Position numbers and translations under genes: made by a program. Source: Brevinematales bacterium (GTDB lineage: Bacteria > Spirochaetota > Brevinematia > Brevinematales > Thermospiraceae). Taken from it: 64,000 nucleotides of DNA. Shown one piece after another: positions 24,661-57,331 of this stretch. Within the stretch, counting starts at the first letter, position 1. The number at the start of each line of letters is the position of its first letter. The DNA lies in the NCBI GenBank assembly GCA_013177995.1, contig JABLXN010000012.1, forward strand, positions 1-64,000, given 5' to 3'. The notes under the pieces are model-generated. The model had not been told where the DNA came from. It worked only from the letters and a program-made list of their open reading frames with translations, and made no database searches.

Positions 24661-25080
24661 TTATTCAACATCAATATAAGCGTTCTTTCCACCGAAGCCA
24701 TCATCCATGAAACCAGTAGGCTTTGGTTCCATCTGGTCAACAACCTCGGACTGATCCTGGAAGATCCACTGGCCATCAGCAGTGTACTTGTAAATATAGC
24801 GACCAGGAGCAAATTCTACAGTGATAGCCCAGGAACCATCTGCCTGCTTCTCCATAGCATAGTTGGGATCAGAAGGATTCCACCCATTGAAATCACCAAC
24901 CAAGTTCATCACCCCATACTCTTCACCAGGAAGGGGCTTGTAGGAGAAGGTGATCTTCCCTGCCTTCACCTTGCCACCAGTACCTGCAGCCTTCGTCGTG
25001 CTACTTCCACCACCTTCGCCACAGGCAACCAGTGAAGCAGCCAAAAGCACTGCCAGAACAGCCAGAACAGTCTTCTTCAT
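24661..25080 (-). CDS. Small lipoprotein with CBM48/glycogen-binding-like domain
   Basis: 139 residues. Signal peptide and lipobox ASLVAC (Cys about residue 20), then a Gly/Ser/Thr linker and a single E-set domain (about 42-139). The domain has the hallmarks of CBM48/AMPK glycogen-binding modules: VGDFNGWNPSDP, DGSWAITVEFAPGRYIYKYTADG and WIFQDQ. Usually this module is fused to branching or debranching enzymes or kinase beta subunits; here it stands alone on a lipid anchor. It may bind alpha-glucans or a protein partner at the cell surface. It has its own promoter and terminator, so it is a monocistronic gene. Confidence 0.82.
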   Translation of the reverse strand: MKKTVLAVLAVLLAASLVACGEGGGSSTTKAAGTGGKVKAGKITFSYKPLPGEEYGVMNLVGDFNGWNPSDPNYAMEKQADGSWAITVEFAPGRYIYKYTADGQWIFQDQSEVVDQMEPKPTGFMDDGFGGKNAYIDVE

Positions 25081-25167: not shown

Positions 25168-26217
25168 CTATCCCTTTCCCTCTTCACGGCTTTTTGAGAC
25201 GCCAGCCTGTTCAAAAGACGCCATTTCCCGAAGAAGGCTTGCCGCTGCCCGCAAGATAGGTACAGAGAGAACCGCCCCTGTTCCCTCCCCCAATCTCATG
25301 CCCAAGGAAAGGATTGGCTTCATTCCCAATTTTTCTACCACAAGGCGGTGTCCCTTTTCCTCGGAGAGATGCCCCAAAAAGGCATACTCTTTCACCGGAG
25401 GAAACATAGCGGAGGCTATAGCAAAAGCCGCCGTGGAAATAAAACCATCCACGACAAAAGCCTTGCCAAGAGAAGCAGCCCCAACATAAAACCCCACCAT
25501 ACCGGCTATCTCAAGCCCTCCAAAGGCCTCTAAAAGAGAAAGGGGGTCATTCCTTTCCCATTTCCTTCGCCGAAAAACCTCTTTCAAAACCTTTCGTTTG
25601 TGTTCGAGCCTTTCCCCTTCCATGCCGGTGCCTTTTCCCACCATCTCATCCAGAGGGATATCAAACAAAGCCGATAACACAAGCGAAGCACTACTGGTAT
25701 TCCCAATACCCATCTCGCCCGCAATCAGAAGATCCTTTTCCTTTCCATAGCGAAGAGCCACTTCTTTTCCCTCTTCTATAGCCTCTTCCACTTCCGTTCG
25801 TGTTAGAGCGTTCTCATGCAGAGCGTTTCGAGTAGCTTCCCTCACCTTGAGAGAGAGAAGCGCGGGATGGGGTGAAAATACCCCCTTCACCCCCAGGTCG
25901 GCCACTAAAAGTTCTGCCCCCACCTGACGGGCAAGGACATTGACGGCCGCTCCCCCCCGAAGAAAATTCAAAACCATCTGGTAGGTAACCTCCTGAGGAT
26001 AGAGCGAAACACCCTCTTCGGCAATTCCATGATCACCAGCAAACACCACCACAAGCACCTTTTCTACGGAGGGCTTAAGAGAACGCTGAATGACCACCAG
26101 ACGGCAGGCTATCTCTTCCAAAAAACCTAAGGAACCAAGAGGTTTTGTCTTGTTGTCCATGGCTTGTTTGGCACGAGAAAACCACTCATCTCTTTCATAA
26201 ACCAACATTTCTTCCAT
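25168..26217 (-). CDS. cobT: Nicotinate-nucleotide-dimethylbenzimidazole phosphoribosyltransferase
   Basis: Activates the lower ligand: NaMN plus dimethylbenzimidazole (or another base) gives alpha-ribazole phosphate, which CobS attaches. 349 residues, normal length. Motifs: DNKTKPLGSLGFLEEIA at the start, VVFAGDHGIAEEGVSLYPQ, LNFLRGGAAVNVLARQ, GEMGIGNTSSASLV, and the C-terminal catalytic Glu region MRLGEGTGAVL. Last gene of the cobamide operon, 1 nt after the cbiR stop codon. Which base it prefers cannot be read from sequence. Confidence 0.95.
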   Translation of the reverse strand: MEEMLVYERDEWFSRAKQAMDNKTKPLGSLGFLEEIACRLVVIQRSLKPSVEKVLVVVFAGDHGIAEEGVSLYPQEVTYQMVLNFLRGGAAVNVLARQVGAELLVADLGVKGVFSPHPALLSLKVREATRNALHENALTRTEVEEAIEEGKEVALRYGKEKDLLIAGEMGIGNTSSASLVLSALFDIPLDEMVGKGTGMEGERLEHKRKVLKEVFRRRKWERNDPLSLLEAFGGLEIAGMVGFYVGAASLGKAFVVDGFISTAAFAIASAMFPPVKEYAFLGHLSEEKGHRLVVEKLGMKPILSLGMRLGEGTGAVLSVPILRAAASLLREMASFEQAGVSKSREEGKG

Positions 26218-26218
26218 T

Positions 26219-27010
26219 CTATGCCTCCTCTTCCATACTTTTCAGAATAAGCAAAGAAGAAACAAGATCCGCAAGAGAGAATACTTCGATAATGGCTGGT
26301 GTAGCCCCTACCAGAGAAAATACCCCCTGGAGCCTTGTTTCATCCATCACGGCAAGCGATTGATGATCCTTCTCTCCCTTCACCCCATGAAGATGAAAGA
26401 GCCGTATTTTCTTCCCAAAACTTTCCACAAATATTCTCTCATCTTTTCCTAAAAGCCACCAGTGGCCAACATCAAAACACACCCCAAAAGGAGAAGAGGC
26501 TATCTCCTCCGCAAAAAAGGTCAAATCATAATGCGTATTCTCAAAAAGAAGGGGATACTCTCCAAGCGAAGCGAGCTTCTTCATAAGTCTCCCAAAGGCT
26601 TCTTTGTCTCGCAGGCAAGGAGTATATTTCTCCGCCTTCCGTCCATCACTCTTTTCTAAATGAAGAACATACCCCAAAGGCTGAAGGGACTGAAGACACC
26701 CAAGAAGTTTTTCTAGTTCGCTCACATGCCTCTCATTCATCTCAGGCCAGAGATGAAAATCTAGAGGCAGATGCACCACAAAATCAAGCCCATATTCCTG
26801 CCTCATCCTGTCCAAAGAACTCACCCAGGCCTCTTCCTGCCATATCTCCAAATAGTCACGCCCCAAAAGAAGAAGCTGAATAATCCTGATATGAGGAGCT
26901 AAAAGCTCTATATTCCTTTCATAACTCTCCCTTGCTGTTTCTCCCACAGGGAAAATATACGACGTCGTCCCCATCCTTCTTCCCGGCAAAAGCCTTTCCA
27001 CGGTTTTCAT
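26219..27010 (-). CDS. cbiR: Cobamide-remodelling phosphodiesterase CbiR
   Basis: 263 residues in the xylose isomerase/AP-endonuclease TIM-barrel superfamily: GTTSYIFP at the start, FVVHLPLDFHLWPEM, LLFENTHYD, GVCFDVGHWWLLG and FHLHGVKGEKDH, which supply the expected metal-binding His/Glu/Asp. In Akkermansia, CbiR hydrolyses the nucleotide loop of imported cobamides so that a different lower ligand can be added. The identification here rests on fold plus position: it overlaps cobS by 4 nt (ATGA) and precedes cobT in a riboswitch-controlled salvage operon. A different sugar-isomerase-like function is possible but unlikely in this context. Confidence 0.82.
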   Translation of the reverse strand: MKTVERLLPGRRMGTTSYIFPVGETARESYERNIELLAPHIRIIQLLLLGRDYLEIWQEEAWVSSLDRMRQEYGLDFVVHLPLDFHLWPEMNERHVSELEKLLGCLQSLQPLGYVLHLEKSDGRKAEKYTPCLRDKEAFGRLMKKLASLGEYPLLFENTHYDLTFFAEEIASSPFGVCFDVGHWWLLGKDERIFVESFGKKIRLFHLHGVKGEKDHQSLAVMDETRLQGVFSLVGATPAIIEVFSLADLVSSLLILKSMEEEA

Positions 27011-27741
27011 ACCCAGTCCATCCATACACAAAGGGAGAGAATCTCCACTAACTCCGCTGTTGCCCCTATCACATCCCCCGTAATCCCTCCAATTTTCCTG
27101 TAGGAAAGCCTTCGCATCCCCCACGTTCCCAAAAAAGAAACCACGAGAGAAAACAAGGGCCTGACACTCCTCAATCCCCATGTGAAACCAAGGGCTATCA
27201 GAAGCACCTGAAGCCCCACTCCCCAAAAAGCCCACGACGGCACCTGTCCTACGAGAAACGCCGCCGTTCCCTTTTCCCGTGGATAGGACGCCCTGTAGGC
27301 TATCCATACCATGGCCGACCGGGAAAGCACCCACGAAAATCCTATCCCAAGGAGATGGGAGAGAACGAGAGGATAAACACTATACCGAAGAAGAAGAAGA
27401 AGTATCCCCAAAGAAAGACCAAATACCCCAACCCGACTATCCTTCATGATCTCAAGACGCTTCTGTCGAGAAGCGAGAGCCAAAAACCCATCCCAGGTAT
27501 CACACCAGCCGTCAAAATGGAGAAAACCATTCACAAAGAGGGGTAGAGCCATCATCCCCCACACTATGACCATGGAGGAAAGTTTCACAAGATCGCCAAG
27601 AACCACCCACCCCACCACAAGCCCTCCATACAAAGCCCCCACAAGCGGGAAAAACACCACCAACCTCCCCACCGGTGGTATCTCTTTCACCCTCAAGGGA
27701 AGGATGGTCAAAAGAGAAAGTGCCGCCAGAAAAGCCTTCAC
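27007..27741 (-). CDS. cobS: Adenosylcobinamide-GDP ribazoletransferase
   Basis: Membrane enzyme joining adenosylcobinamide-GDP and alpha-ribazole (phosphate) to complete the cobamide. 244 residues with about six hydrophobic helices. The conserved cytosolic motif is present: GFLHFDGWCDTWDGFLA followed by RLEIMKDSRVGVFG. Start overlaps the cobU stop by 4 nt, and its own stop overlaps the cbiR start. Confidence 0.95.
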   Translation of the reverse strand: MKAFLAALSLLTILPLRVKEIPPVGRLVVFFPLVGALYGGLVVGWVVLGDLVKLSSMVIVWGMMALPLFVNGFLHFDGWCDTWDGFLALASRQKRLEIMKDSRVGVFGLSLGILLLLLRYSVYPLVLSHLLGIGFSWVLSRSAMVWIAYRASYPREKGTAAFLVGQVPSWAFWGVGLQVLLIALGFTWGLRSVRPLFSLVVSFLGTWGMRRLSYRKIGGITGDVIGATAELVEILSLCVWMDWV

Positions 27742-28271
27742 TTCAACCTCCAGGCAATCCCACTCACGAGAAAATACACCTCCTCAGCCACAGAAGCCAC
27801 ATACTGATTGTACCTTCCAAGTACATCACTATACCGCCTGGAGAGAGGATCCGCCGGCACTACCCCGAGTCCTATCTCATTCGTTACCACCACAAGCGTG
27901 TGATGCTTTGTATGCACACACGACACAAGAGCGTGTAATTCCTCTTCACCCTCTCTCTCATCCTCCTCTGAAAAGTCCCACCCCTTCGCATGGAAACGAT
28001 TCGAAAGCCACATGGTAAGACACTCCCAGAGAATAACCTGTGATGGTTCCAGAGAGACTATCACTTTTTTTACCTCAAGCGGTTCCTCTATCGTCTTGAA
28101 TCGTTTACCCCGTTGTTGTTTATGATATTCAATCCGTTTCAAAAACTCCTCATCCACCGCCACGCCCGACGCAAGATAGAGAGGATTTTCCGACAAACGC
28201 AAGGCATACCTCTCCGCAAACTGACTCTTCCCTGATCTTCTCCCTCCTGTGACAAGAACAATTTTGCCCAT
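27738..28271 (-). CDS. cobU: Adenosylcobinamide kinase/guanylyltransferase
   Basis: Phosphorylates adenosylcobinamide and transfers GMP from GTP, giving AdoCbi-GDP for CobS. 177 residues, the usual size. P-loop GGRRSGKSQFAE near the N-terminus, the guanylylated-His region RIEYHKQQRGKRFKTIEEP, and LWECLTMWLSN. The late VVTNEIGLGVVPADPLSRRY block is typical. It begins 3 nt after the ABC ATPase gene. Confidence 0.95.
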   Translation of the reverse strand: MGKIVLVTGGRRSGKSQFAERYALRLSENPLYLASGVAVDEEFLKRIEYHKQQRGKRFKTIEEPLEVKKVIVSLEPSQVILWECLTMWLSNRFHAKGWDFSEEDEREGEEELHALVSCVHTKHHTLVVVTNEIGLGVVPADPLSRRYSDVLGRYNQYVASVAEEVYFLVSGIAWRLK

Positions 28272-28274
28272 ACG

Positions 28275-29060
28275 TTACCCCTTCAAAAGACGTCCGGGCA
28301 CTAAATACGCATGGGGTCTTCTGTCCACAGGAGAAGGATACACCACCACAGGCACTCCAAAGACCCGTTCAATCCTCTCATAGGTAAGTGCTACCTCCGG
28401 CACATCCACCACCTCTACCCATCCCTCACACAGCATCATCACCCGATCACAGTACAACCCGGCTAAATTGATATCATGCAACACAATGATAACCGTCAAT
28501 TTCTCCTTGATAGTTTCAAGCCAGTCCAAAATCCGCACCTGATGACGGATATCTAAATGAGCCGTGGGTTCATCCATGAGAAGAATTTCCGGCTCCTGAA
28601 TAAGAGCACGCACAATCTGCACCATCTGAAACTCTCCACCGCTGAGTTCCGAAAGCCTTCTCCCAAGGAAGCCCTCTATCCCAAACTCCTCGGCCCGTCT
28701 GAGAATATGCCTTTTTTCCTCCACAGAAATCCCAAACTCCCACACCTCATGATAGGGATAACGCCCCATCGACAAATACGAAAAAACGTCCATCGCTGGC
28801 CTGGAAGGGGATTGACTCACCACAGCCATGGTTTTTGCCATCCTGCGTCGAGAAAACGTAGAGAGTTTCTCCCCCCGATAGAAAATCTCTCCCCTGTATC
28901 CCATCGCCCCGGCTAATGTCCGCATCAAGGTAGATTTCCCACTCCCATTTGGTCCAATAATTCCAAAGATCTCCTTCTCCCTTACCTCAAAAGAAATCTC
29001 ATGCAAAACAGTCCTCTTCCCATAACCTGCAGAAAGCCTCTCCACCACCAAAAGACTCAT
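28275..29060 (-). CDS. btuD: Cobamide ABC importer, ATPase subunit
   Basis: 261 residues. Walker A GPNGSGKST, Q-loop VVSQSPSR, signature LSGGEFQMV, Walker B ILLMDEPTAHLD and H-loop VLHDINLA mark a FecE/BtuD-type importer ATPase. Start is the ATG overlapping the btuC stop (ATGA). By motif alone it could equally be a ferric-siderophore system; the cobalamin riboswitch and cob genes in the same operon make cobamides the likely cargo. Confidence 0.9.
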   Translation of the reverse strand: MSLLVVERLSAGYGKRTVLHEISFEVREKEIFGIIGPNGSGKSTLMRTLAGAMGYRGEIFYRGEKLSTFSRRRMAKTMAVVSQSPSRPAMDVFSYLSMGRYPYHEVWEFGISVEEKRHILRRAEEFGIEGFLGRRLSELSGGEFQMVQIVRALIQEPEILLMDEPTAHLDIRHQVRILDWLETIKEKLTVIIVLHDINLAGLYCDRVMMLCEGWVEVVDVPEVALTYERIERVFGVPVVVYPSPVDRRPHAYLVPGRLLKG

Positions 29061-30070
29061 CCCCTTTTCTCCTGAAAAAGCATCCACAGGAAAAGAAGCC
29101 CCCCTAAAATGCCTGTAATCACCCCTACAGGAAGTTCCAGAGGAGCAATCACCACCCGAGCAAGAAAATCACAGAGAACAAGAAATCCCCCTCCACCTAA
29201 AAAAAACAATGGCACAAGCAGTCTATGTTTCAAAGGCAAGAGACGCTTATACACATTTGGCACAAGGAGTCCCACAAAGCCAATCAGCCCGGCACTGGCA
29301 ATACTCACTGCGGTAAGCACCACCGCCAAAAAAAAGAAAAGCTTTTTCATCCTGTGGACAGGCACACCTAAAAACAAGGCCTCTTCTTCTCCCAAAAGAA
29401 AGGCATCCATCTCCCGGGCAAAAAACCATACTATCCCCACTCCCCAGGCCACCACAAGCCAGACAAAGACAGGATTGACCATCCCCCCTTGTTCAAGAGA
29501 GCCCATAGTCCAGAAGACTATATGATGGAGATCCGCCGCTCTCGCCAACGCCAAAAAAAGCATCACAAGCCCGGAAGAAAGAAACGAGAGCATAAGCCCA
29601 AAGAGAAGCATATCAGACAAAAGAATGGTAGAACCTGAAAAGATACGTCTCCTGCTAAGTCCATACAAAATACCCATAAAACCAAGCCCACCCGCCAAAC
29701 TCCACCAGAAAAGCCCACCCTGATACCCTATCATTTTTCCAAAAACAAGCCCAAGACATACCCCAAGGGTAGCCCCGCCCGATATGCCAAGCGTATAGGG
29801 TTCAACAAGGGGATTGGCAAAGAGAGACTGCAAAATCCCTCCAGCCACAGAGAGAGCCCCTCCCACGGCAAGTCCCAATATCCAGCGGGGAAATCTGATT
29901 TTCCACACGATATCACGGGAAAGCCCCTCCCCCCTCCCCATAAGAATTGTCACCACTTCCCGGGGTGAGATCCCGCTCGGTCCCCACCCTAAAGAGAGGA
30001 TACTCCCTGTTATCAGAATAGCCATCGTCAACACAAAAACCCAGAGAGAACGTTTCCAGGACACATCCAT
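29057..30070 (-). CDS. btuC: Cobamide ABC importer, permease subunit
   Basis: 337-residue FecCD/BtuC permease with about ten TM helices. Family motifs: IRFPRWILGLAVGGALSVAG, LQSLFANPLVEPYTLGISGG, and the late GLIGFVGLLVPNVYKRLLP coupling-loop segment that docks on the ATPase. It begins 1 nt after the binding-protein gene. The name follows the operon context. Confidence 0.92.
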   Translation of the reverse strand: MDVSWKRSLWVFVLTMAILITGSILSLGWGPSGISPREVVTILMGRGEGLSRDIVWKIRFPRWILGLAVGGALSVAGGILQSLFANPLVEPYTLGISGGATLGVCLGLVFGKMIGYQGGLFWWSLAGGLGFMGILYGLSRRRIFSGSTILLSDMLLFGLMLSFLSSGLVMLFLALARAADLHHIVFWTMGSLEQGGMVNPVFVWLVVAWGVGIVWFFAREMDAFLLGEEEALFLGVPVHRMKKLFFFLAVVLTAVSIASAGLIGFVGLLVPNVYKRLLPLKHRLLVPLFFLGGGGFLVLCDFLARVVIAPLELPVGVITGILGGLLFLWMLFQEKRG

Positions 30071-30071
30071 A

Positions 30072-30866
30072 TTACTTAGTCATCGAGACAATCTGTTTCA
30101 AAATAGCCACAAAGGTTGTTGGTGTAGGGCTGGTTGCCATGGTAGTATCAATGAGGTGCACATGCCCCCGCTTCACCGCACTGAGAGAAGGATAGTTTTT
30201 CCATACAGCTATAGCCTCTTTTGCCTCACTATCCATGAGAGCGATGAGAATCACCTCTGGATCGGAGGCCACCACCTGTTCAAGGCTTATCTGACCATAT
30301 CCCACATTCGTAGCCACATTGATAGCATTCGCATACTTGAGGTAATCCTGCATAAAGGACTGGTCGGGTAAAGTCCACAGGGGATTGATCCCGATCTGAA
30401 AAAATACTCGCCGACGGGGTCCCTTGGCTGTCTGGATGGCTATTTTCTCCACCTCTTTTTTGAGAACCTCCACCCTGTGAGTAGCCTCCTTTTCTTTTCC
30501 AAGGAGTCTCCCTATCTCCACATACTCCCGACAGATCCCTTCAAAATTCGCAGGCTGGGTAAAAATCACCACCTTGAAACCAAGCTGCCTCAGTCTCTCT
30601 ATACGTTTGGGATCATTCAAATCCGTTCCTAAAATAAGATCTGGTTTAAGAGAGGCAATAGCCTCCACGTTGATTTCAATCACATTGCCTACCTTCTGAA
30701 TCTTCTGAGCGGCCGAGGGCCTGGTACAATAAATGGTATTTCCCACAATATCCTGCCCATGTCCGAGTTCAAACACCTGTTCGGTAAGCCTTGGTCCCAG
30801 CGTGACAATCCGAAGTCCATACCCATAGACCACCATCAACAAACCAAGAAGGATCCATTTTCGCAT
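30072..30866 (-). CDS. btuF: Cobamide ABC importer, substrate-binding protein
   Basis: 264 residues from MRKWILLG, chosen for the GGAGGAAAGG in front of it; the longer frame starting near 31070 would lie inside the riboswitch leader. Signal peptide of about 17 residues without a lipobox Cys, so probably free in the periplasm. Class III periplasmic-binding fold: IVTLGPRLTEQVFEL, NVEAIASLKPDLILG, ISLEQVVASDPEVILIA and SLSAVKRGHVHLID. It is the first gene behind the riboswitch. Confidence 0.9.
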   Translation of the reverse strand: MRKWILLGLLMVVYGYGLRIVTLGPRLTEQVFELGHGQDIVGNTIYCTRPSAAQKIQKVGNVIEINVEAIASLKPDLILGTDLNDPKRIERLRQLGFKVVIFTQPANFEGICREYVEIGRLLGKEKEATHRVEVLKKEVEKIAIQTAKGPRRRVFFQIGINPLWTLPDQSFMQDYLKYANAINVATNVGYGQISLEQVVASDPEVILIALMDSEAKEAIAVWKNYPSLSAVKRGHVHLIDTTMATSPTPTTFVAILKQIVSMTK

Positions 30867-31074
30867 ATCCTTTCCTCCATCTCTTGTGTTTTCTCTCAAA
30901 AAGAAAAAAGCATGCCTTTCTCCCCCAAAAACTTGGAGAAAAACATAGCCCTTCCGTAGCCCAAAAGCCGCGGAAGAATTCTCTTTCACAAACCTCTCGT
31001 CTCTTTCACCTTTCACCAGAAAAGCATACAAGACGCACCCTTTCCCTCTTCCGGAGAAAAAGTGCCTCACGAGG

Positions 31075-31211
31075 CAGGTCTTCTGGCTCCCGGATCAACC
31101 TACTCTCCCGGCCTTCCCAGTTTCCCAGTGGCATCCATGGGATTTCGTCCCCGGTTACAGCGGCGGGACCGCGACGGACTTTCACCGTTCTTCCCTTAGC
31201 CTTGGCAATTC
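31075..31211 (-). ncRNA. Cobalamin riboswitch
   Basis: Minus strand. The conserved core is present in order: GGTGAAAGTCC, CCCGCCGCTGTAA, the B12 box GCCACTGGGAAACTGGGAAG, GGCCGGGAG, and the closing AGCCAGAAGACCTGCC. It starts at the predicted transcription start and precedes btuF by about 200 nt. Just at its 3' edge a short palindrome TGCCTCGTGAGGCA (31076-31063) is followed by CTTTTT, a possible terminator that ligand binding would favour. Cobamide would then switch off the whole import and remodelling operon; the mechanism is inferred. Confidence 0.95.
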
Positions 31212-31217
31212 ATTATC

Positions 31218-31246
31218 ATTATAAGAAAAGCTTCTAAGAATGTCAA
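31218..31246 (-). promoter_or_regulatory. Perfect-consensus promoter of the cobamide operon
   Basis: TTGACA (31246-31241), 17-nt spacer, TATAAT (31223-31218): an exact sigma-70 consensus directly upstream of the riboswitch. Confidence 0.88.
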
Positions 31247-41581: not shown

Positions 41582-41617
41582 ACAAAAGCGCCTCCCCGAA
41601 GGGAGGCGCTTTCTTTT
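41582..41617. terminator. Terminator of the giant-protein operon
   Basis: A perfect 12-bp stem AAAGCGCCTCCC-CGAA-GGGAGGCGCTTT (41585-41612), ending at the stop codon of the giant gene, with A/T-rich flanks on both sides. Confidence 0.88.
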
Positions 41618-44600
41618 ATCTTGCAATCACAATCGTTCCACTATACACCTCACCACCAGCCTCAATCTTGTACACATACACACCACCAGGCACATCGTAG
41701 CCAGAGAGATCTTTCCCATCCCAGAAGACCTCTCCATTGCCATACTCACCACTGCGTTCTACCTTGTACACCAGGTTGCCCTTGAGATCGTATATGCGGA
41801 CCACATACTTATCAACAGGCTTCTCAAACACAATGGAGAGTTTCATGTTCTGCACCTCTCGACCGCCACGCCGTGGAGTAAACACCTTCGGATCAGTTCG
41901 GACACTGATGAAGCCTTCTTTCACCTTTTCTGCTGTATCAGCCATCACGGTGTAGTACTTGTGGAGATAGCTTACCTTCACACTTACCGTATGGTTATTT
42001 GGATCAACCTTGCCGCCTAATTTCACCCACTGCTTGGTGGTAGCCCGCCAGTAGTAGATCGAGAGTTTGTCCTCACTCCAGCCCTGAGCAGCAATATACG
42101 CTGGATCATAGGCTATCCTGATCGTTGCATCGTTTTTCAGCCATTGTTCAGGCTGTTCCTCGCCCTTCGCATTGCGGATGACAAATATCCATGCCTTGGC
42201 ATTTGGCTTATCAAGAGGCGCCTGGATGGGCTTTTTCTCGGTGGCCTCTTGCTGTTCCGTCGTCATATTGGTAATCCAGATATCAAGCCTGAAGTTTTCT
42301 CCTATAGTGCCAGATGGGAAGGAAATCATTGTTTTCATATCATCGAGACATATCACTGTTTGTTCATCGGTAGCATCAGGACTCAGAAAATCCCGTTCCA
42401 TCTTGTTTGTACCAATGTTCGTTACCACGTTAGCCACTACCACGACTCCAGGCACACGGAGCTCTCGATAGTCTCTTCCCATGAGACCCACATCATAGGT
42501 ACCGGGCATCACATAATCCACCGTGTAAGAACCAGTTCCATCTGCCCCTGCTACCAAGAGTTCTCCAAACTTGTTGGTCTCTACCTGGGAGGTGCCTACC
42601 TTGTAGAGTTTGATAGTGGGGTTAGCAAATCCAGGGAGTACCACCCCTTTCACACGGCCAAAATCAGCCACAAGAACAGGAAGAATATTTTGCTCACCAC
42701 TTGGCACAATGGCATCCTCAAAGTTAATGGATCCCTCGTAGCGCACCTTCGCTGGCATATAGTTCGTCCAGTTGTCGTTGTTGACATACACCAGTTCAAG
42801 TTGGATCTCATCAGAGGTGCTATGGAGAATGCCATCGGCCTCATAGTTCACAATGATATTGGTAGCATTGGTGGTATAGGCAAGAGCCCTATTGAGGGTC
42901 TTTGACCTCACATTGGTCACCAGAAGAGCAGTATTACTCGACGCAATGATCACCTCTTTGATATCCCTATCATACAGGCCATTCTTCACCACATAGGTCA
43001 CCACCGCATAGTTATCGATACTGTAAATCACCTGTTTGTTCTTCACATACCCCTCGGTCGGCTGTGGTGGGGAGGTAAAATCAATCTGCCTGGTTTCCTC
43101 AGCCACAAGGGATCCCAGATTGTATGCTTTGAGTGTGGTATCAGAAAGCCTCGAGACACCCACACTATTGGTGAACTGGAAGAAGAGGGTGTTTGTCTCA
43201 CCAGGGGCAAGGTAAGGAGCGGCATACTGGACCACAATGGTCTGAGCATTGGGACGAGAAACCGTGGCAAGTGGATGGGTGGCTGTTACACCAGCCGGAG
43301 TCATATTGGTGAGTTCAGCAGGAATGGTCAAGACATTGGAGATCACCACCACCTCATCCGCAGACCTGTTGGAAATGGTGAGCTTGAAATCTGCAATTCG
43401 ATCATTGCCAGGAATGGTATACCATGTTGTCCACCAGATATTGGTCGTTTCAGGACGAGAGATAGTAGTAGCCTGCTTGAGGGCATCAGCAGACTTTTCC
43501 CTGAGAAGGCCTGGTCCTGTCCCGTTGTCGCCGTACACATTCCACACCAGTCCATTGGTGAAAAGCTGATTGGTCATATCCTGAAGCGTCATGGTGATCG
43601 TATCCACAGAACCCTTGGCAAGCGGTGTGGTATAGACCACCCAGAAGTTCGAAGGTGTGAGATTGGAGATACTTCCTAAACTACTTGTCACACTCGTGAT
43701 GTTGGTGTAGAAGAATCCATTGGGTTCAACCTTCACCCGATTCAATGGAAGCACTCCGGGTGTATTGTGGTACACCTTGAGAGTGATGATGTGGGATTTT
43801 CTATCCGAGGCCACTGTACGCTCTAAGAGTTCCCCAGAACCTGGATCAAGGACATTGGCCATCACGGTGATATTGGTGGTCTGGAAGCCATTGTCGAGGG
43901 TGAACACCCACGGCACATTATAGAGCGCATCGGTAATCGTATTGGTCACATCCAGTTCAATCCTCATCACCTGATTGGTGAGAAGCCCATCCAGAAGAAT
44001 AGTATAGGTATTGGGCGCTACAAAATTCGTATTGGTTGCCTGAACCGTTGCCGGAAGCGTCAAACGGATACTGGTATCGGCGAGGGCATTGGTAAACCCA
44101 TCTGGCACCACAAGAAGTATCCTCGAAATAGTATTCTGCCCATACCCTCTATTGGTAAGCACAAACCGAACAGTCCCCTCTCGAAGGGTGGTATATATCT
44201 CATTGATGGGCATCGTGGCTACCGCCTGAGGCACAGGCATTCTGAATACCACATTACTCGTTGCCCCGATCTGAGGAAGAGCTGCCACAAAGGTGGATCC
44301 AGAGGTTGTATAACGAACACTCAGGTCAAAGGAGGTATTGGTTTCCCCGTACTCAAAATCATCTCTCCACTTGACGGTGATAATATCATTCGATCCTGGT
44401 GCCATCCTGCCAGCTGGATACACCACCTCAAGATAGTTTGTTCCATTCTGTTCAAAGACACTGTAGCCAGAGGCCTTGCCACTACTAAAGGAGATCATAT
44501 TGGTCCTGAATGGCCATGGGATGGTGATACGCAGTCTATCAATCACATCCTGGTCACTCTCACTGGTATTCTGAAGAGCAAACTGAAGGGTATTGGTGAT

Positions 44601-47600
44601 ATCCACCGTATTGAGATTGGTCGGCGTTATAGCATACACCGTCTTGTAGGGTGGAACCACAAACTCAAGGGAGAGATCATTGGTCCACAGAGCAAGGTTG
44701 GCTTGTCCAGCATTGGTAGGCAGATCCCACGGAGCATTCGCAGCCAAAATCTTCCATGAGAGGGCACGAGCCCCACTAAAGTAGGCTGTGCTTTCCCTAT
44801 CATAGGCTGTGAAGGTAATGGTATCCACTTCCCCTCGTTTGATAGAGGTTCCCTGGGCAAGGTAATCCACATAGATAGCCCCATCGTTGGAGTAAATCGC
44901 CTTGGTCCCAATGCGAGAGGAGTTGACACTGACAATATTGGTCAAAATCTCTTTCAAATTCGCATTGGTAGTCGGTGGCACAATCCTGAGAAGGGTGATA
45001 TTGTTCCCTTCTTCACTGACATTGGTAATCGTCACCGTGTACTGTTCATACGCAAGGTCTTTGTTGACCTTGTTGGGAGATACTTTGGCATAGAACTGGA
45101 TGGGAACGTTCACAATCTGCTGATCCTGTGCCCCGTAGGTACACATCGCAAAGTCTACGAGGTTGCTGGAATAGTAAGCTGAGACCTTCCAGTACTGGTT
45201 GGTCAGTGTTGTTTGTATCCCCTTCTTCCACAAGAAATCCACAGTAAAGGCGCCAGCAGGAGGAAGCTCAGAAGCCGAAAAGTCTAACCAGATCGCTCCG
45301 TTGGAGATAGTCTTGGTCGGGCTGAACCCATCCACAGAAATGGTATTCGTCAGCACCACATAGAGAGAAGGAATCTCTATCCGTATCCATTTTACACCAA
45401 GACCACCAGTTATACCATTGGTAATGGAGAAACGGAACTGCCCATTGGTTGATGTTCTCGCAACATTGGTGATATCAAGAGAAGCAACTAACATAGCCGT
45501 TCCATACGTTCTTCGCTGGGCTTCTGTTCCCACATTGGTAATCTCAAAGTAAGACTTCGGCGGGGTAAACCCATAGTCGATGAAGCCGTTATTGGCGAGA
45601 AGTTGCCATGTCCCCGTCGCAGGCAACGTCAGGCGGTTGGAAATACGGGCCACAAGGGTGATGAAGTCCCCCATTCCCGACTTGAATTCGTGGCTTCCTG
45701 CTGGATAGGTAATGATCACATTTGAAGGAGTGATGGTAAAGAAACTACTATTGGTTGAAGCAAAACCAAGCAAACTACTCGAGGCTACCACAATGGTATT
45801 GGTTAACGGCGTCGGAATCTTGATCTCTACACTATTGAACCTATCATTCTGTCCCCCGGTATTGGTCACAAAGACCACAAACTGCTGGGTGATAACCGCC
45901 GGTCCATTGGTATTGACAAAGAACACGTTTGGTGTGACCCATCCACCACCAGAAGGCTTGGGCAATCTGAAGTTCAGGGTTCGATAATAGCCACTGACTT
46001 CATTGGTTACCACAAACCATCCACGAGCATTGGTTACACGACAGGTGAGAAGCTGGTTGAGAAGATCCATGTTGTCCACAATATCTACCATATCAAAATG
46101 CACATACGCCGTTTCACCCCCAGCCAATGGAGAGGAGAAGTTGGCCTGAAGTGTCCCTGTCAGAGAATCATAGACCACTGCTCCGAGTACCGTTCCAGCG
46201 GCATTTGTCATGAGAGTATTGAGAATATTGGTGCTAACGATGGTCGGGATCTGAAGTCTTGCCCTGTAGATCTCATTGGCAGCAAGACCGGTATTGCTTA
46301 TCACCCAGGTGAGGCGGTTTGTTTCTGTGGTAGAATCAATATCTCCTGGATACACTCCCCAGGACACCTCAGGCATAGGATAATCCACATAGAGACGATT
46401 GGACCCATTATACAGGATACCTATGGTCGTATCATTCGAAGAATAAAAGTCAGAAGAAGCCACCTCCGTCTTGTACACCCTCACCGGTATCTGGAAGTTT
46501 GTTGGCAGAGCGATATTGTCAAGCACATCCACAATGACATCATCCCGAGAGAGGGCTGGATTATCGTACAGGGAGAAGAAGTTGGTATAAACAAGATGGA
46601 GGACCAGATGATCAGCCGTCTCCACCACATCCAAGATGGTATTGGTAGCAAGGAGACTTGATACCACTGAAACATTCGTCAGAAGCGTCTTGGGATAGAG
46701 GATATCCACGCTTCTGATAGCCACTCCCTTGGGAGAAGTGTTATAAATCCTGTGGATCAGACGATTGGAGACTTTGTCCGTGGTGACTTCTGGCGCATTG
46801 GTCTGGGCACCATTTATCACCCACATCGCATGTTCACCCTTCACCCTTGGAGGAACAATAGAAACTTTCCAGGTGAGAGGGGCATTCTCATACTGAAGCG
46901 TATATCCTGCTGAATTGTTGTTATCAGCATAGAGGACAAAATCAGCCACTTCCGAAGTTCCCACCACATTGGTGTTGGTAAAGGCTGCCCAGAACTGAAT
47001 GGTCGAGGTTGCCCCTGAAGCAAGTGGAGTACTATAGGTTACCCAGATCGCGCCATTGGAGTAAGCCGTCGTTCCAGCAGGAGAAACCGTGATGTTGGAT
47101 ACAGAATCATTGGAATACGTGTTAGGAAGTTGAATGAAAAGCCTATGAACATTGTTCCCCGAAGGTCCATCGTTTTTGATGGTATAGGTATAGCGAACCG
47201 CATTCGAAACATACAATGCATTGATAGCCACTTCAGAAGGACTAATCGAAGCAGCTACCTGAGCATTTGAAGAAGCTACCCTCACAAGCTGAGAAGAATA
47301 CACCGTGTTGGTACCGGCTTTCACCCAGGTTGCCCCACCCACCACTTCGGCACTGTTGACCTCAACCTGCCAGAGATAGTTGGAATACGGAAGCCCTGTA
47401 AACGACGGTGTACCATACACTTTGAAATTTATCTTGTCAAAACCATTGGCTGGAGGAAGCCCAAGGGTCACCAGATTGGTATAATAAATCCAGATAAAAT
47501 TGCTGCCGCTGATGTTGGTTGTCCATATATTGGCGGCACTGACAGCTGCCCCAAGCACCGTGGAAACAATATTGGTTGCTGTCGGCGTATTGTTTGACAC

Positions 47601-49280
47601 CGTAAATCCCGAAGGAATATAAATACGGACACTCGAAATCGGAGGAATGGTTGTCAGCCCTTCTGTGGAAAGTTTCACGGTGAAACTACTCTCCTCCGTC
47701 CCCATGATAATCGGCATGGGGGTATATTCGACCTTGGCATAGGCATCAGGGGCACTATACACACGCACAAGAAGGCTATCAGTGGAATCTTCCCTGGCCT
47801 TTTGTCTCCCTGTGGTCGCATAGGGAAGCCCATTCACCCCGTCAAAGATGATATCCTGAGCTGTGTCTGTATGCTTGATGCTATCAGCATACACCTCAAA
47901 CCTTGAACCCACCGCATCTGGCGTAGATGGAGTAGTCAGGGTAAAATACACATCAATATCATCCTGGCGAATGATATCATTCTGGGTGGCACTCTGCGCC
48001 CAGAAACGGATATAAAGTTCACCATTGCCAAGATCTTTCACCTGGAAACGTCCACTTGCCGGGGCACTGGCACCATTGTTGATGAACCCCTTGACAGGCA
48101 CCCCATTCACCGAGTTGGTCACTGCCACCGAAGCTATACTCCATGCCCCGTACCCGGCGGGCTTTTTGATGTAGAGTTCCTGTACCCCACTATCATTGGG
48201 CTGGGTATCCACATGAATAGTGACCTTGAACTGGATAGATTTGTTAGTCATCACCCTCACCGGAGTAATACGAGCCGTGAGATTGGAAGCCACCGTCCGG
48301 ATCAGGAAGTGATCAAACTGACTCTCTACTTCACCAGCACGGAAGAAAGCCGTCTCTGTGGAGAGAAAAGCCACAAGATTGGTACTCCAACCGACCTCTT
48401 TTTCTCCAATCTTCACCCAGGCATTGCTGAGGTTTGGGGTTGTCCCGAGAGGGTTGTAGTTCACATAGAAGGAGACCTTTTTTCCATCATGGGTTACACG
48501 GATCCCAAGGGGCTGATTCACAGGATTAAAATACCCATCCCCAATAGCAAAATGTCTGGCAAGGGTATTCTGGTTATTCTGGTTATTATCATCATAATTG
48601 CGCTGGAAGGTCGTGGTAATAGTGGCCGCCGTTCCTACCGCAACACCATCAATATCTGTTGTGGGAAATCCCACCACATACTCCCGGTTTTCAAAAAAGC
48701 CGTACGTACTCGTCTGACTCCAGTGCTGCTTCTCAAAGAAGTAGGCAAAGTCGTTCCATCTGTCGTAGGAGGTAGAAGCCCCATTGTCACTGGCTATCCA
48801 CACATTAACAAGAACTTTCTGGTAAATAGTGTTATTATAGAACAATGCTTCCCCTGCATCTCCACGGGGGTCCATACTATTGGTGTAGCGGATCACGGTA
48901 AACCCAAAGGGTTCCTCTGGCGTGGCATTGATCGTCCCGAGCCCTGCCCCGGAAGGACTAAATTTTGCCCCGTCCCCTATATACCAGGTATTCCAGGCAA
49001 GGGCACTTTTATTAGGTCGTCCATAGATTTCAAGAAGCCCCTGATAGCGCCGAATGGTGGCGGGGAAATCCTGATCCGTAGCCCCAAAAATATCCTGCAC
49101 CTCCCACACCATCATATCCCTCGACATGGGAAAATTCCACTGCCAGCCGCCGGCATTGTAGGTCGTCGCATCCATCGCCGGGTTTGAAAAATCCTGGTAG
49201 TAGTAGAGGGACCTGCCCCACCCTGTCGTTATCAGAGCCATCATCACAAGAACAAGAAAACGATATCTTCTCTCTCTCAT
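41616..49280 (-). CDS. Giant secreted repeat protein (second of a tandem pair)
   Basis: 2,554 residues from MRERRYRFLV, with AGGAGGTGGGG upstream; an earlier ATG at 49301 lacks one. Signal peptide (about 1-23). Residues to about 310 form a beta-rich, Trp/Tyr/Asn-rich domain that could be lectin-like. Then about 13 divergent units of 150-165 residues follow, each of the form T-Y-T-I-x-N-x-G-x-x-x-N-x-I, I-x-I-P, V-x-Y-x-x-P-L-x-x-G, resembling DUF11-type surface repeats. A carboxypeptidase-regulatory-like domain (GVVLPGFANPTIKLYKVG), a domain with ISFPSGTIGENF, and a FlgD/T9SS-like end (IYDLKGNLVYKVERSG, GGVYVYKIEAGGEVYSGT) close it. Very few Cys, rich in Asn/Thr. Probably a surface fibre or layer. 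Confidence 0.85.
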   Translation of the reverse strand: MRERRYRFLVLVMMALITTGWGRSLYYYQDFSNPAMDATTYNAGGWQWNFPMSRDMMVWEVQDIFGATDQDFPATIRRYQGLLEIYGRPNKSALAWNTWYIGDGAKFSPSGAGLGTINATPEEPFGFTVIRYTNSMDPRGDAGEALFYNNTIYQKVLVNVWIASDNGASTSYDRWNDFAYFFEKQHWSQTSTYGFFENREYVVGFPTTDIDGVAVGTAATITTTFQRNYDDNNQNNQNTLARHFAIGDGYFNPVNQPLGIRVTHDGKKVSFYVNYNPLGTTPNLSNAWVKIGEKEVGWSTNLVAFLSTETAFFRAGEVESQFDHFLIRTVASNLTARITPVRVMTNKSIQFKVTIHVDTQPNDSGVQELYIKKPAGYGAWSIASVAVTNSVNGVPVKGFINNGASAPASGRFQVKDLGNGELYIRFWAQSATQNDIIRQDDIDVYFTLTTPSTPDAVGSRFEVYADSIKHTDTAQDIIFDGVNGLPYATTGRQKAREDSTDSLLVRVYSAPDAYAKVEYTPMPIIMGTEESSFTVKLSTEGLTTIPPISSVRIYIPSGFTVSNNTPTATNIVSTVLGAAVSAANIWTTNISGSNFIWIYYTNLVTLGLPPANGFDKINFKVYGTPSFTGLPYSNYLWQVEVNSAEVVGGATWVKAGTNTVYSSQLVRVASSNAQVAASISPSEVAINALYVSNAVRYTYTIKNDGPSGNNVHRLFIQLPNTYSNDSVSNITVSPAGTTAYSNGAIWVTYSTPLASGATSTIQFWAAFTNTNVVGTSEVADFVLYADNNNSAGYTLQYENAPLTWKVSIVPPRVKGEHAMWVINGAQTNAPEVTTDKVSNRLIHRIYNTSPKGVAIRSVDILYPKTLLTNVSVVSSLLATNTILDVVETADHLVLHLVYTNFFSLYDNPALSRDDVIVDVLDNIALPTNFQIPVRVYKTEVASSDFYSSNDTTIGILYNGSNRLYVDYPMPEVSWGVYPGDIDSTTETNRLTWVISNTGLAANEIYRARLQIPTIVSTNILNTLMTNAAGTVLGAVVYDSLTGTLQANFSSPLAGGETAYVHFDMVDIVDNMDLLNQLLTCRVTNARGWFVVTNEVSGYYRTLNFRLPKPSGGGWVTPNVFFVNTNGPAVITQQFVVFVTNTGGQNDRFNSVEIKIPTPLTNTIVVASSSLLGFASTNSSFFTITPSNVIITYPAGSHEFKSGMGDFITLVARISNRLTLPATGTWQLLANNGFIDYGFTPPKSYFEITNVGTEAQRRTYGTAMLVASLDITNVARTSTNGQFRFSITNGITGGLGVKWIRIEIPSLYVVLTNTISVDGFSPTKTISNGAIWLDFSASELPPAGAFTVDFLWKKGIQTTLTNQYWKVSAYYSSNLVDFAMCTYGAQDQQIVNVPIQFYAKVSPNKVNKDLAYEQYTVTITNVSEEGNNITLLRIVPPTTNANLKEILTNIVSVNSSRIGTKAIYSNDGAIYVDYLAQGTSIKRGEVDTITFTAYDRESTAYFSGARALSWKILAANAPWDLPTNAGQANLALWTNDLSLEFVVPPYKTVYAITPTNLNTVDITNTLQFALQNTSESDQDVIDRLRITIPWPFRTNMISFSSGKASGYSVFEQNGTNYLEVVYPAGRMAPGSNDIITVKWRDDFEYGETNTSFDLSVRYTTSGSTFVAALPQIGATSNVVFRMPVPQAVATMPINEIYTTLREGTVRFVLTNRGYGQNTISRILLVVPDGFTNALADTSIRLTLPATVQATNTNFVAPNTYTILLDGLLTNQVMRIELDVTNTITDALYNVPWVFTLDNGFQTTNITVMANVLDPGSGELLERTVASDRKSHIITLKVYHNTPGVLPLNRVKVEPNGFFYTNITSVTSSLGSISNLTPSNFWVVYTTPLAKGSVDTITMTLQDMTNQLFTNGLVWNVYGDNGTGPGLLREKSADALKQATTISRPETTNIWWTTWYTIPGNDRIADFKLTISNRSADEVVVISNVLTIPAELTNMTPAGVTATHPLATVSRPNAQTIVVQYAAPYLAPGETNTLFFQFTNSVGVSRLSDTTLKAYNLGSLVAEETRQIDFTSPPQPTEGYVKNKQVIYSIDNYAVVTYVVKNGLYDRDIKEVIIASSNTALLVTNVRSKTLNRALAYTTNATNIIVNYEADGILHSTSDEIQLELVYVNNDNWTNYMPAKVRYEGSINFEDAIVPSGEQNILPVLVADFGRVKGVVLPGFANPTIKLYKVGTSQVETNKFGELLVAGADGTGSYTVDYVMPGTYDVGLMGRDYRELRVPGVVVVANVVTNIGTNKMERDFLSPDATDEQTVICLDDMKTMISFPSGTIGENFRLDIWITNMTTEQQEATEKKPIQAPLDKPNAKAWIFVIRNAKGEEQPEQWLKNDATIRIAYDPAYIAAQGWSEDKLSIYYWRATTKQWVKLGGKVDPNNHTVSVKVSYLHKYYTVMADTAEKVKEGFISVRTDPKVFTPRRGGREVQNMKLSIVFEKPVDKYVVRIYDLKGNLVYKVERSGEYGNGEVFWDGKDLSGYDVPGGVYVYKIEAGGEVYSGTIVIAR

Positions 49281-49290
49281 ACCCCACCTC

Positions 49291-52200
49291 CTACCGTGCA
49301 ATCACCAGCGTCCCACTGTAGGTCTCGCCGCCGGCATAGATCTTGTATATATAGACACCATTCTTCACATCATAACCTTCAGTATCCTTGCCATCCCAAG
49401 CTATCTCTCCCTGCGTGTACGGACCATCCTCACGGACAAACCGCCGGATGAGATTCCCCTTCAGGTCAAAGATCTTCACCTCATACTTCTCCACAGGAGA
49501 TCTGAACTCCATCGTGACACGCACAGAACCGTAGTAACCATCTCCAGAACGACTTGGCGTAAACACCTTAGGTCTCAGGGTCACCGCCGTGATGATACCA
49601 GGCCTGTCCTCTCCAGCCTTGCTAAACACACCGTACATACTATGGACATAGCTCACCTTGGCCACCACGCGTCTTCTCGCCGTGTCCACCTCGCCACCAA
49701 CCCGTACCCACCGAGGATTCAGCCCGTTGTCATCCCAGTAGTAGATGGCAAGATCTCCCTCACTCCACCCACGGGAAGCGATATCCGAAGGATCATAGGC
49801 AAGATAGAGGATAGCATCCCGCTTCACTACAGCCCCATCCATCGGTTTGTCGTCCCGTGTATTGAGACTGAACCGGTAGCCATACATGTCGTCGTTGTGC
49901 TCGGGGCTTTCACCGTCTTGTTCTCCGTGAGATTGCGCTTCTGTTCAGCGGTAAGCGGCACTCTTGTGATATCCACCGAGAACTCCTTGCCCACAGAACC
50001 ACCAGGGAAGACCACGATGGTATTGGTATCTTCATAGCACTCCACCACCTGAGCCTCATCCTCACCACCCATCAGTGGCGCGTTGCGCATCGCTATCTGA
50101 GGAATCTCTGTGATCACATTGGCCACAATATTGGTGCGATAACGCTGACTGCGGTAATAAGGAGCGGAGAACTCAATATCATACGTCCCATCAGGGATCT
50201 TTCGTATGACGTAGGTCCCTTCAGGCACACGACTTGACGTCGAGAGTACATTACCATCGATATCCAGAGCCGTCGTCGAGGACCCGGCTGGATAGATCTT
50301 CACCGCTACCGCACGATTTGTCGGGAAAACACTTCCTCTCACCACGCCCCAGTTGGCATTGGTGATATAGAGGATAGCCTTCTCAGGATCAGGGGTGAAA
50401 ACCTTCATAGCACTCACGTTAGTCCCATCAGGACCGATCGATTCAAGCCAGAACCTTGTGGTAATCGGAATAGCTTCCGTCGCATTCAGATTGTAACGGA
50501 AGGTGAAAATCAGATCCTCAAAGTACCCCTGTCTTATCCCATTCGCCGTGGTATAACTCAGGATAAACTGATTGGTATTGGTGGCAGGTCTTGTCACCGT
50601 AGCCACTGTATTGGCAAGGGTAATCTCGCTAAAGTAGTTGGTCACATCCTTCTCAAAGGTGATCACCACCTGGGTCACCACACTCTCAAAGGTGCGATTG
50701 AGCACACGATAAATCAGTGTCGCATTGGTATCGATGAGATACACCCTGTTGTCTCCGTAGAAACCACCTTCCACCGCCACAGGAGGATAGTTCACCTTCA
50801 TCATGGAAACAGAGCCGTTCATCCCCGAAGCCGTATAGTACACCATATCGGCCACATTGGTGAGATTGGCGGTTTCGACAATGAAGGATACATTGGTCGG
50901 CACTCGATAGAGATTGGCAAAGTCAAAGGCAATCTCATCCCTCTCTCCCTTGCCAAGGAGCCCAATACCCCTGTAGTCAGCCACAATACGATGGGTGATA
51001 GGATCATAACTCACATCAGCCCCTTTCGTGCTTGTCAGCCCTGAAATATTCGTTACCCCAACGGGCAAAATAATCCTTGCCATGGCTACAGGATTGTCAA
51101 GGGAAGCGCGATTGGTGAGACGAACCACGGTATTGGTGGTTTCCGTATCCACATAAATGGTGGTGGTACCAATGGTCTGCGCTACCTCTGTAGGTGGCAT
51201 ACGGAAGGAGAAGACATTTGTCTTGCCACTCTGGACAGGAAGGGGTATCCATCGTTCTGCTTCTGAGAGAGCAAGACCATCGTCCACGTAAGCAAGCACC
51301 TGATTGGTGAAGTTTCCTATCCGTCTATCATCCCAGAGTCGGAAATTCACCACATCATAATCTCCACTGACAATTCGCTTATTATCAAGGGCGTATTCGA
51401 GAATGATATTGGTCGGATCTCCCGTCATGTGAGCCGCATTGGTAATATATCGTTCACTCTGATAGTTATCCCCATTGGTGAACCAATCAGGGAAGACCAC
51501 CTTCACACGACCTACACGAAGCCCTGTATTCACCGAATTATCAATATTGACGGAGAAGATATTGGTCATCGTGGTGGTATCAATCACCGTATTCCCCTCT
51601 GAGTAGTTCACATACCCGAAGAAAGTAGGAAGCGAAGAGAGAGAAATGGTGTTCTGTCCTGTAGCTGAAGCCGTCTTGACATAGTTGCGTACCACCACAG
51701 GAAGAGAAAGGTCTCCCAGATCTGTCATGGTATTGGTCACCTCAAGATAAATCTCATCCCTCTGCCCTGCCAAAAGAGGAGAAGCATAGTCAAGGGTAAG
51801 CACACCAGAGGCATAGTTGGTTCCCGTCGCCACGGTATTGGAAACCTTAGCCACACTAAATCCCGTTTGCAGAGCTGTCGGGAGGGTGATCTGCACACGA
51901 TCGATATCACTGGTACCACGACCGGCATTGCTCACGATCACACCAAGCATAAACCGCCGGCGAGCAAGATAGACCTCAGAGGGTGACAGGGTCACCACCG
52001 CCTGGGGTGAAGGCATCACATACCACGTCGTAGCCAACTGCCCCACCTGCACGGAAGCGTCCTTGTACCTATCAGCCGTGGTGGTGAGACGAGCCTGCAT
52101 GGTCCAGGTGAGGTTGGTTTCATAGTGATCAATTCTATCCCGAAGCCTTATGATCACCTCATCCCCTTCCATCGGGAAAAGAGGACTTCCACTATAATCT

Positions 52201-55200: not shown

Positions 55201-57095
55201 GTGGTGGAGATATTCACAAAACTGATGGTATCAATACCAGAACCCGCAATGAGGTAGCGATTTTCATTGGTGTAATACACCGAGAGTTTTCTATTCACTG
55301 CATCATAGGCAAAACTCGAGGCATTGGTGAGCCGCTCACTGGCAAAACTCCCCGGCTGGAGATCAAACCCAACAGGGAAAAAGATATCCACCTGAGCGAT
55401 ATCCGCATTGTTGTTGGCAGATTCACTCGTATCCTTGGCGGCCACATCCACAAACCAGGTCTTGGATTCTCCCTCGTAGGTGAAATTTGGACGAAGAGAA
55501 GCTATCCCCACGGGATCGTTGGCCGTGGAAAAGGTGAGGGTATTCTCATCAGCTCGAAAACCAGTGAATGCCGTCACATTCCCAGCATACGCACGGGCTG
55601 GGCCTGTCGTGGCATTGGCCGTCCAGGTGGTATCTGCATATTTTTCGTTATTGACATACACCGCCAATCTCTTGCCACTCACATCAGCCACAGGGGAAGT
55701 GAAAAAATTGCTCACCACGATATAGATCATATACTGGTGGGTGGTGGCAAGACTCCCCCCAAACCCACTATAGTTGGGATGGAAAACATCAGGGGAGGCA
55801 GCGGCATTGAAACGGATCTTGAGACGCTTGCCATTCTGTTTCACCGAAAGAGCTACCGTGCCCGCTGCTGGATTCTGGTCGGCATAGACACGCCCAAAGG
55901 TACGATAGATCGTCTGGCCATTGGTGTGTGCCCAGAAGACCCCTATATGATTGGTGAATGCCGTCCAGTTGGTGAAAAAGAGAAACTCATCGGGCAGATC
56001 CACATACACCTCCTGGACACCTGCCTCATTCACCGTGGAAAACCACGGCTTCAGGGCAATCCTGAGGATATTGGTCGTCCCTGCCTTCGTCTGGACAGGG
56101 GAGATCTCGGCCACATTGCTCGCCCCCACGGTCCGGATGGTCATGTCATCAACATTATACCACAGGGCCTCCCCATCGTCACGATTGTCTGACACTCCAA
56201 ACATAGGGACCAGGTTATTGGAAAAGGTCACCGGTACTCTGCCCACATAGTAGAACTGATTGGAATAATAGGCAGCAGGTCGCACTGTTCCATCATACTC
56301 CCTCTTGGCCGTCCCCGTGGGATTGGGATTCACATAGAAGTAGGCATACTCCCCATCAATGGTGACACGAAAACGAACTACATTGGTATTAGTAGAATAA
56401 GGATTATTTACCGTACCAGCATTTCCCTCATAAAGATCTCTTCCCCAATTGTCATCATACCCCCACAAAAAGAGGGGGGTGAGGTCATGCGTTCCACTTC
56501 CATCGGGAGGAACAAGGTTGGAGAAGGAATAGGCTGAATTGCGGGTAAACCCAAGGTCCGACGCCCAGAAGGAACGGGGAAGCACATTGGGCTCACTGGG
56601 AAGCCCGTCATTCGTCCCGAGTTGAGGTCTGGAAAGCTCCGAAAAATGAACCACATTGGGCAGAAATTGCCCCACTGCACTTACCGAAGGATCATGCTGC
56701 ACCCATAAAAGTTGAAACGCCTCTCTCATACGACCGGATTCAGGATTCGAACCATCGTCAGGATCAAGTCGACAGAACGTCCTCGTAATCTCAAAGCCAA
56801 TAGGATTCTCTTTTGAAGCCGTATACATCTGATTGGTTTTTCGAACAAAAAAGCCATAGAACTCACTTAAAGCATCAAAAGTATTTCCCTCTCCTCTCAC
56901 CTGGAGAGTACTCCCTGTAAAGGTAAAAGCATAATCGTTTGCTATATTATGGACCCCTAATTGCAAAGAATAACGAAAATTGTATTGAAAGATAGTATTC
57001 TCCGCCGCGTCAAAGCTCGTGAAAAAATACTCCCCCCACAGCGGCAGAACTATCCCCATCATGAGAACAAGTGAAAGAAGACCTCGCGACCTCAT
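49291..57095 (-). CDS. Giant secreted repeat protein (first of a tandem pair), frameshifted near its C-terminus
   Basis: Two frames make up one gene of about 2,601 residues. Frame one runs from MRSRGLLSLVL (57095, GGAGGCGAT upstream) and would stop at 49827 after an unrelated tail. Frame two (49887-49291) carries the expected C-terminus, from MYGYRFSLNTRDD to the FlgD/T9SS-like end GGETYSGTLVIAR. Adding one C to the CCCC run at 49906-49903 joins them and restores KAPEHNDDMYGYRF. Layout matches the downstream gene: signal peptide, N-terminal beta-rich domain, about 13 repeat units, carboxypeptidase-regulatory-like domain (RGSVFPTNRAVAVKIYPAG), VVFPGGSVGKEF domain and C-terminal domain. Either a read error or a recent mutation. 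Confidence 0.82.
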
Positions 57096-57331
57096 ATCGC
57101 CTCCTTCTGGCTTTCCAGTGTACTCGGCTCTTTTTTGTATCGGCACAGGGCCGCTACTTGTTGATAGAGAAAGTTTACTTTCTTACTTGAGAAGTTTACT
57201 GACAGACACACCTTCCGTGGTGTGAGCTTTTTCATGAAAATGAGAAAAGCGACTCCTTCGACTTTTCCCTCATACAATATACTCAAAAATTCACCAAAAA
57301 GTGAAATGGAAAACAAAAAAATTTTTCACTT

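Follow-up and report, generated by a model that had tools for sequence, protein, structure and literature searches.

Among the closest described relatives of the system considered here is the CbiR enzyme of Akkermansia muciniphila, which yields cobinamide-phosphate and alpha-ribazole, lets Escherichia coli use another cobamide and belongs to an organism that rebuilds cobamides to pseudocobalamin (Mok et al. 2020, PMC7733943). Among cbiR homologues, 80% adjoin cobamide genes and 25% adjoin putative transport genes (PMC7733943). We analysed a 64-kb stretch of a Brevinematales bacterium genome (contig JABLXN010000012.1, positions 1 to 64,000; hereafter the window) that carries, on the minus strand between 25168 and 31246, seven genes in the order btuF-btuC-btuD-cobU-cobS-cbiR-cobT behind a single cobalamin riboswitch and promoter. 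As in the A. muciniphila CbiR locus (cobDQ, cbiB, cobT, cobS, cobU, cbiR; PMC7733943), cbiR stands beside the nucleotide-loop genes. We propose that the operon is a cobamide salvage-and-remodelling unit, a reading to which we give a probability of about 0.88.

Identity of CbiR and organisation of the operon

The TIM-barrel protein encoded between cobS and cobT exceeds the cut-off of the CbiR equivalog model NF041277 by 58 bits, over residues 13-258. The same cut-off was exceeded in 35 of 393 genomes of the phylum and in none of the 14 control genomes, whose superfamily members stayed below it; 15 further genomes, drawn from the same order or class, likewise lacked a CbiR match of that strength. 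When 28 homologues are aligned, 14 columns are invariant. All 14 residues, among them every invariant His, Asp and Glu of the presumed metal site, are kept in the window protein; the set includes H80, H117, E157, D180, H183, H206, H208, D215, H216 and E242. In a tree of 49 sequences (30 CbiRs over the cut-off and 19 weaker superfamily relatives), the protein lies inside a 19-row group composed only of CbiRs, with 17 of the 19 weaker relatives on the opposite side. The support of this group is moderate (90/88, below the 95/80 star); the tree was built without experimentally characterised superfamily enzymes, and both tree and alignment without the Akkermansia CbiR. The initial annotation had called this protein CbiR and had asked whether it would cluster with sugar isomerases; the tree groups it with CbiRs. 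The protein is predicted to hydrolyse cobamides to cobinamide-phosphate. When CbiR served as query in a contig scan, the sole return was a chance match of 12 residues in Marinobacter.

All seven genes lie where they had first been annotated (Table 1). The genes had also been described as joined by overlaps, which holds for three of the six junctions. In operon order these measure +1, -4, +3, -4, -4 and +1 nt, that is, 4-nt overlaps at btuC/btuD, cobU/cobS and cobS/cbiR and gaps of 1-3 nt elsewhere. The cbiR gene thus overlaps cobS and is followed 1 nt downstream by cobT, all in the same orientation. CobU, CobS and CobT all exceed their curated NCBIfam cut-offs, and Pfam places BtuFCD in the expected superfamilies.

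The annotated single cobalamin riboswitch and exact-consensus promoter are likewise borne out. The aptamer is the only Rfam match in the window. Apart from the promoter, neither strand of the window has a pair of exact consensus hexamers spaced 16-18 nt apart. Directly 3' of the aptamer lies a P13-like hairpin; its CTCCGG (31056-31051) and CCGGGG in the L5 region (31154-31149) could form an L5-L13 kissing loop, a feature of cobalamin riboswitches (PMC9600662).

The whole unit is conserved in the genus. Its other two genomes (G001 and G002; G000 being the genome that carries the window) share the seven-gene order, the riboswitch and a consensus-like promoter, with protein identities of 51-87% (for the btuF product, 87% with G001 and 79% with G002). 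The orthologous riboswitches score 103.3 bits (G001) and 96.7 bits (G002), and the leaders, read from the sequence, contain TTGACA-17-TATAAT in G001 and TTGACA-17-TATACT in G002. All three species share the hairpin loop CCGGAAGA but differ in the letters of the stem, whose pairing is complete in G000 and G001 and broken in G002. An arrangement found again in two genomes of the same genus, with its gene order, riboswitch and a near-identical promoter, is not a matter of chance.

Table 1. Features of the operon region (window coordinates)
Feature	Coordinates	Strand	Evidence
Promoter, TTGACA-17 nt-TATAAT	31218..31246	-	12/12 consensus matches
Cobalamin riboswitch aptamer, RF00174	31056..31215	-	95.4 bits, E 1.7e-22, threshold 31.5; full-length model match 1-189
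P13-like hairpin directly 3' of aptamer, loop CTCCGGAAGAG	31035..31065	-	CCGGAAGA loop also in the hairpins of G001 and G002
Terminator-like hairpin then TTTTTTCTTTTT (T6CT5 tail), between riboswitch and btuF	30898..30950	-	fold -16.9 kcal/mol
btuF, periplasmic cobamide-binding protein	30072..30866	-	Peripla_BP_2 PF01497 101 bits; top NCBIfam match BtuF 107 bits, under cut-off 234
btuC, permease	29057..30070	-	FecCD PF01032 250.8 bits; BtuC-type match 185.6 bits, under its cut-off
btuD, ATPase	28275..29060	-	ABC_tran PF00005 100.3 bits; no subfamily assigned by NCBIfam
cobU, cobinamide kinase / cobinamide-phosphate guanylyltransferase	27738..28271	-	PF02283 177.3 bits; NF004469 172.4 bits, cut-off 161
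cobS, cobamide-5'-phosphate synthase	27007..27741	-	PF02654 156.2 bits; TIGR00317 113.9 bits, cut-off 110
cbiR, cobamide-remodelling phosphodiesterase, 263 aa	26219..27010	-	NF041277 162.7 bits, cut-off 105; conserved residues; tree; structure model
cobT, base phosphoribosyltransferase	25168..26217	-	PF02277 414.7 bits; TIGR03160 419.4 bits, cut-off 319.3

Directly after cobT, at 24661-25080, the window encodes a small protein that resembles a lipoprotein and carries a glycogen-binding AMPK1_CBM-like domain; it is found in the same place in G002 and not in G001. Farther away are two giant minus-strand open reading frames, one of 2561 aa (41616-49301), whose sole Pfam feature is a FlgD-type Ig-like domain at the C-terminus, and one of 2439 aa (49827-57146) without a Pfam match.

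A proposed remodelling pathway and its alternatives

The following scenario would account for the operon. At low cobamide concentration the riboswitch would leave the operon on, and BtuFCD would import complete cobamides together with cobinamide. CbiR, as a metal-dependent TIM-barrel phosphodiesterase, would cut the nucleotide loop of the former, with cobinamide-phosphate and an alpha-riboside as products. CobU would then activate cobinamide-phosphate with GTP, CobT would convert any available base into an alpha-ribotide, and CobS would join the two. As cobamide accumulates, the riboswitch would presumably shut the operon, which would limit the re-cutting of the finished product by CbiR. The initial annotation had proposed such an import, stripping and rebuilding of foreign cobamides; the gene identities agree with it, the enzyme activities are predictions from the sequence, and control over the final form of the cofactor, which was also claimed, is not established.

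The distribution of cbiR elsewhere in the phylum supports the proposed pathway and the order of its steps. In several genomes cbiR adjoins cobU, cobS or cobT, as in G110, where it lies beside a CobU-CobS open frame. Moreover, two distant families of the phylum carry in-frame fusions, one CobU-CbiR (427 aa, G031, L029:7282-8565) and one CobT-CbiR (608 aa, G304, L108:841-2667), which suggest a direct hand-over between steps. Mok et al. 2020 make no mention of such fusions in their main text (PMC7733943), and our literature searches, whose coverage was incomplete, returned no report of them or of the adenosyltransferase gap described below.

Several observations weigh against the remodelling scenario. 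The window CbiR shares only 21-34% identity with the chosen homologues from outside the genus, the Akkermansia sequence not being among them. BtuF, BtuC and BtuD all score below their curated cut-offs, the ABC parts match several FecCD-family models, and the ligand of the transporter is therefore predicted from the operon context and the riboswitch. No CobC was recognised in G000; the two histidine-phosphatase matches look like a phosphoglycerate mutase (the candidate on contig 8, rejected as such) and a short SixA-like protein. The terminator-like hairpin has no counterpart in the leaders of G001 or G002, so that transcriptional versus translational control is uncertain. Finally, neither PF02572 (CobA type) nor PF01923 (PduO/EutT type) had a match in any of the three genus genomes, that is, no corrinoid adenosyltransferase was recognised. 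One of these genomes is a single 2.5-Mb contig, and among the control genomes PF01923 was positive in 9 and PF02572 in 7.

The alternative that survives best, which we nevertheless consider unlikely, is that the operon serves chiefly for cobinamide salvage, with CbiR in a minor or corrective role, recycling damaged or unsuitable cobamides instead of remodelling imported ones. Indeed, BtuFCD, CobU, CobS and CobT would suffice for salvage without CbiR, the organism, lacking benzimidazole synthesis of its own, need not remodel to one fixed product, and cobinamide salvagers made up 15% of the genomes in a 2018 survey (PMC6461909). However, cbiR occupies the same position in all three genomes of the genus, and the fusions and adjacencies to cobU, cobS or cobT come from distant families. 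In addition, cobinamide-phosphate, the product of CbiR, is the substrate of the second CobU reaction.

We see still less room for the idea that the transporter serves mainly another chelate, such as an iron-siderophore or heme, and that only the cob genes concern cobamides. The transporter scores given above would suit it, but the transporter genes head an operon that stands behind a cobalamin riboswitch and also holds cobU, cobS, cbiR and cobT, an arrangement kept throughout the genus, and the top family match of the binding protein is BtuF. Least probable of all is a sugar isomerase/epimerase, or an endonuclease, lying by chance in a B12 operon: Pfam assigns the TIM-barrel protein only to the superfamily AP_endonuc_2 and the solved folds nearest to its predicted structure (of high confidence, predicted local distance difference test score 94.4) are D-tagatose 3-epimerase-like proteins and endonuclease IV, but such fold matches are the expectation for the whole superfamily and cannot separate its members, and the curated model, the tree and the residue conservation led us to reject both identities.

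Corrinoid supply, lower ligand and adenosylation

Genome-wide statements on G000 (2.38 Mb, 57 contigs, 100% complete) rest on family searches. The genome holds one gene of the tetrapyrrole-methylase family, of the RsmI type by sequence and length, which we take to encode a 16S rRNA enzyme; other ring genes were not searched individually. Because corrin-ring synthesis needs several tetrapyrrole methylases, the pathway appears to be absent, in agreement with the initial annotation, and in a complete genome without a corrin-ring methylase corrinoids must come from outside. G002 encodes a fusion of a uroporphyrinogen methyltransferase to further tetrapyrrole domains (L031, G002:C1:1441766-1442374), which was not found in G000 or G001.

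The dependence on neighbours that had been deduced from this is softened for methionine, since G000 has a metE gene downstream of its second cobalamin riboswitch (109.4 bits, L024:2036-2210, contig 16). Such an arrangement, in which the presence of cobamide would turn off both metE and import, is classical for a facultative B12 user. The possible B12 consumers in G000 are MetH, which lacks the C-terminal reactivation domain as judged by length and model coverage, the ribonucleotide reductase NrdJ and two radical-SAM proteins with B12-binding domains. A weak B12-binding match near the operon in G002 was discarded, as it looks like a response regulator and not a B12 protein.

The lower ligand, too, would come from outside unless it is a purine. 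BluB, a suggested check, is absent from G000, the best match reaching 42.7 bits against a cut-off of 150. We considered a Bza-type protein as the source and rejected it: the sole ThiC-family protein of the genome scores 594.6 bits for ThiC (cut-off 460) and only 529.5 bits against the BzaB cut-off of 700, and its gene adjoins one for a ThiD-type kinase. With BluB absent and the only ThiC-like protein a true ThiC, the base used by CobT would be scavenged or imported, or would be a purine such as adenine. The final cobamide product is thus not predictable from the genome, and these same results are why the claimed control over its form is not established.

Each of the three genus genomes encodes NrdJ (one match per genome; in the family search 636 bits, cut-off 400) although no CobA- or PduO-type adenosyltransferase was recognised in them, and NrdJ needs adenosylcobamide. 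No class I ribonucleotide reductase was seen, the NrdJ model giving its single match in each genome; since a class III enzyme, NrdD, is present, NrdJ need not be essential. In G000 a TAA falls within the matched part of the NrdD gene (L088, G000:C57:688-2538), and a different contig carries a second NrdD fragment that contains five TGA (L091, G000:C55:51403-51753); both are possibly an assembly effect or an interrupted gene. We tentatively suggest, while regarding it as improbable, that the genus lost corrinoid adenosylation, kept NrdJ and lives on ready-adenosylated cobamides, in which case CbiR, CobU and CobS would swap the lower ligand while the adenosyl group stays in place. Alternatively, the genus may have an adenosyltransferase of an unrecognised type, or divergent adenosyltransferases may have been missed by the search. 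This gap beside NrdJ is concrete and testable; we regard it as the most interesting point of the analysis and the only part that is possibly more than ordinary.

Comparison with known systems

Removal of the lower ligand for rebuilding is also achieved by the amidohydrolase CbiZ, as in Rhodobacter sphaeroides and Dehalococcoides mccartyi. However, CbiZ cuts a different bond, so that the aminopropanol linker must be rebuilt, whereas CbiR leaves cobinamide-phosphate (PMC7733943). The locus resembles the cobinamide salvagers E. coli, Thermotoga lettingae and D. mccartyi in that the genes for nucleotide-loop assembly are kept and the ring genes lost (Shelton et al. 2018, PMC6461909); it differs from them in that CbiR would add a start from complete foreign cobamides and in that no known adenosyltransferase was found in the genus. 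With respect to cobalamin riboswitches upstream of btuF and metE (PMC9600662), those described here are ordinary members, with a full RF00174 aptamer and a P13-like hairpin able to pair with L5, and a terminator is convincing only in the btu leader of G000.

A close parallel is Akkermansia muciniphila. Both organisms are without the ring pathway and the same chemistry is predicted for both; here, unlike in the Akkermansia locus, btuFCD shares the cbiR operon behind one riboswitch. Mok et al. describe no riboswitch ahead of cbiR in their main text, where the word occurs once, in a reference title (PMC7733943). The same authors asked what keeps CbiR from destroying freshly made cofactor and proposed a coupling to uptake (PMC7733943). 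Uptake, CbiR and rebuilding on one message under a cobamide sensor would be one plausible brake on CbiR. Altogether, the operon is real and well explained, and it is a clear further case of the recently discovered CbiR remodelling and not a new type of system.

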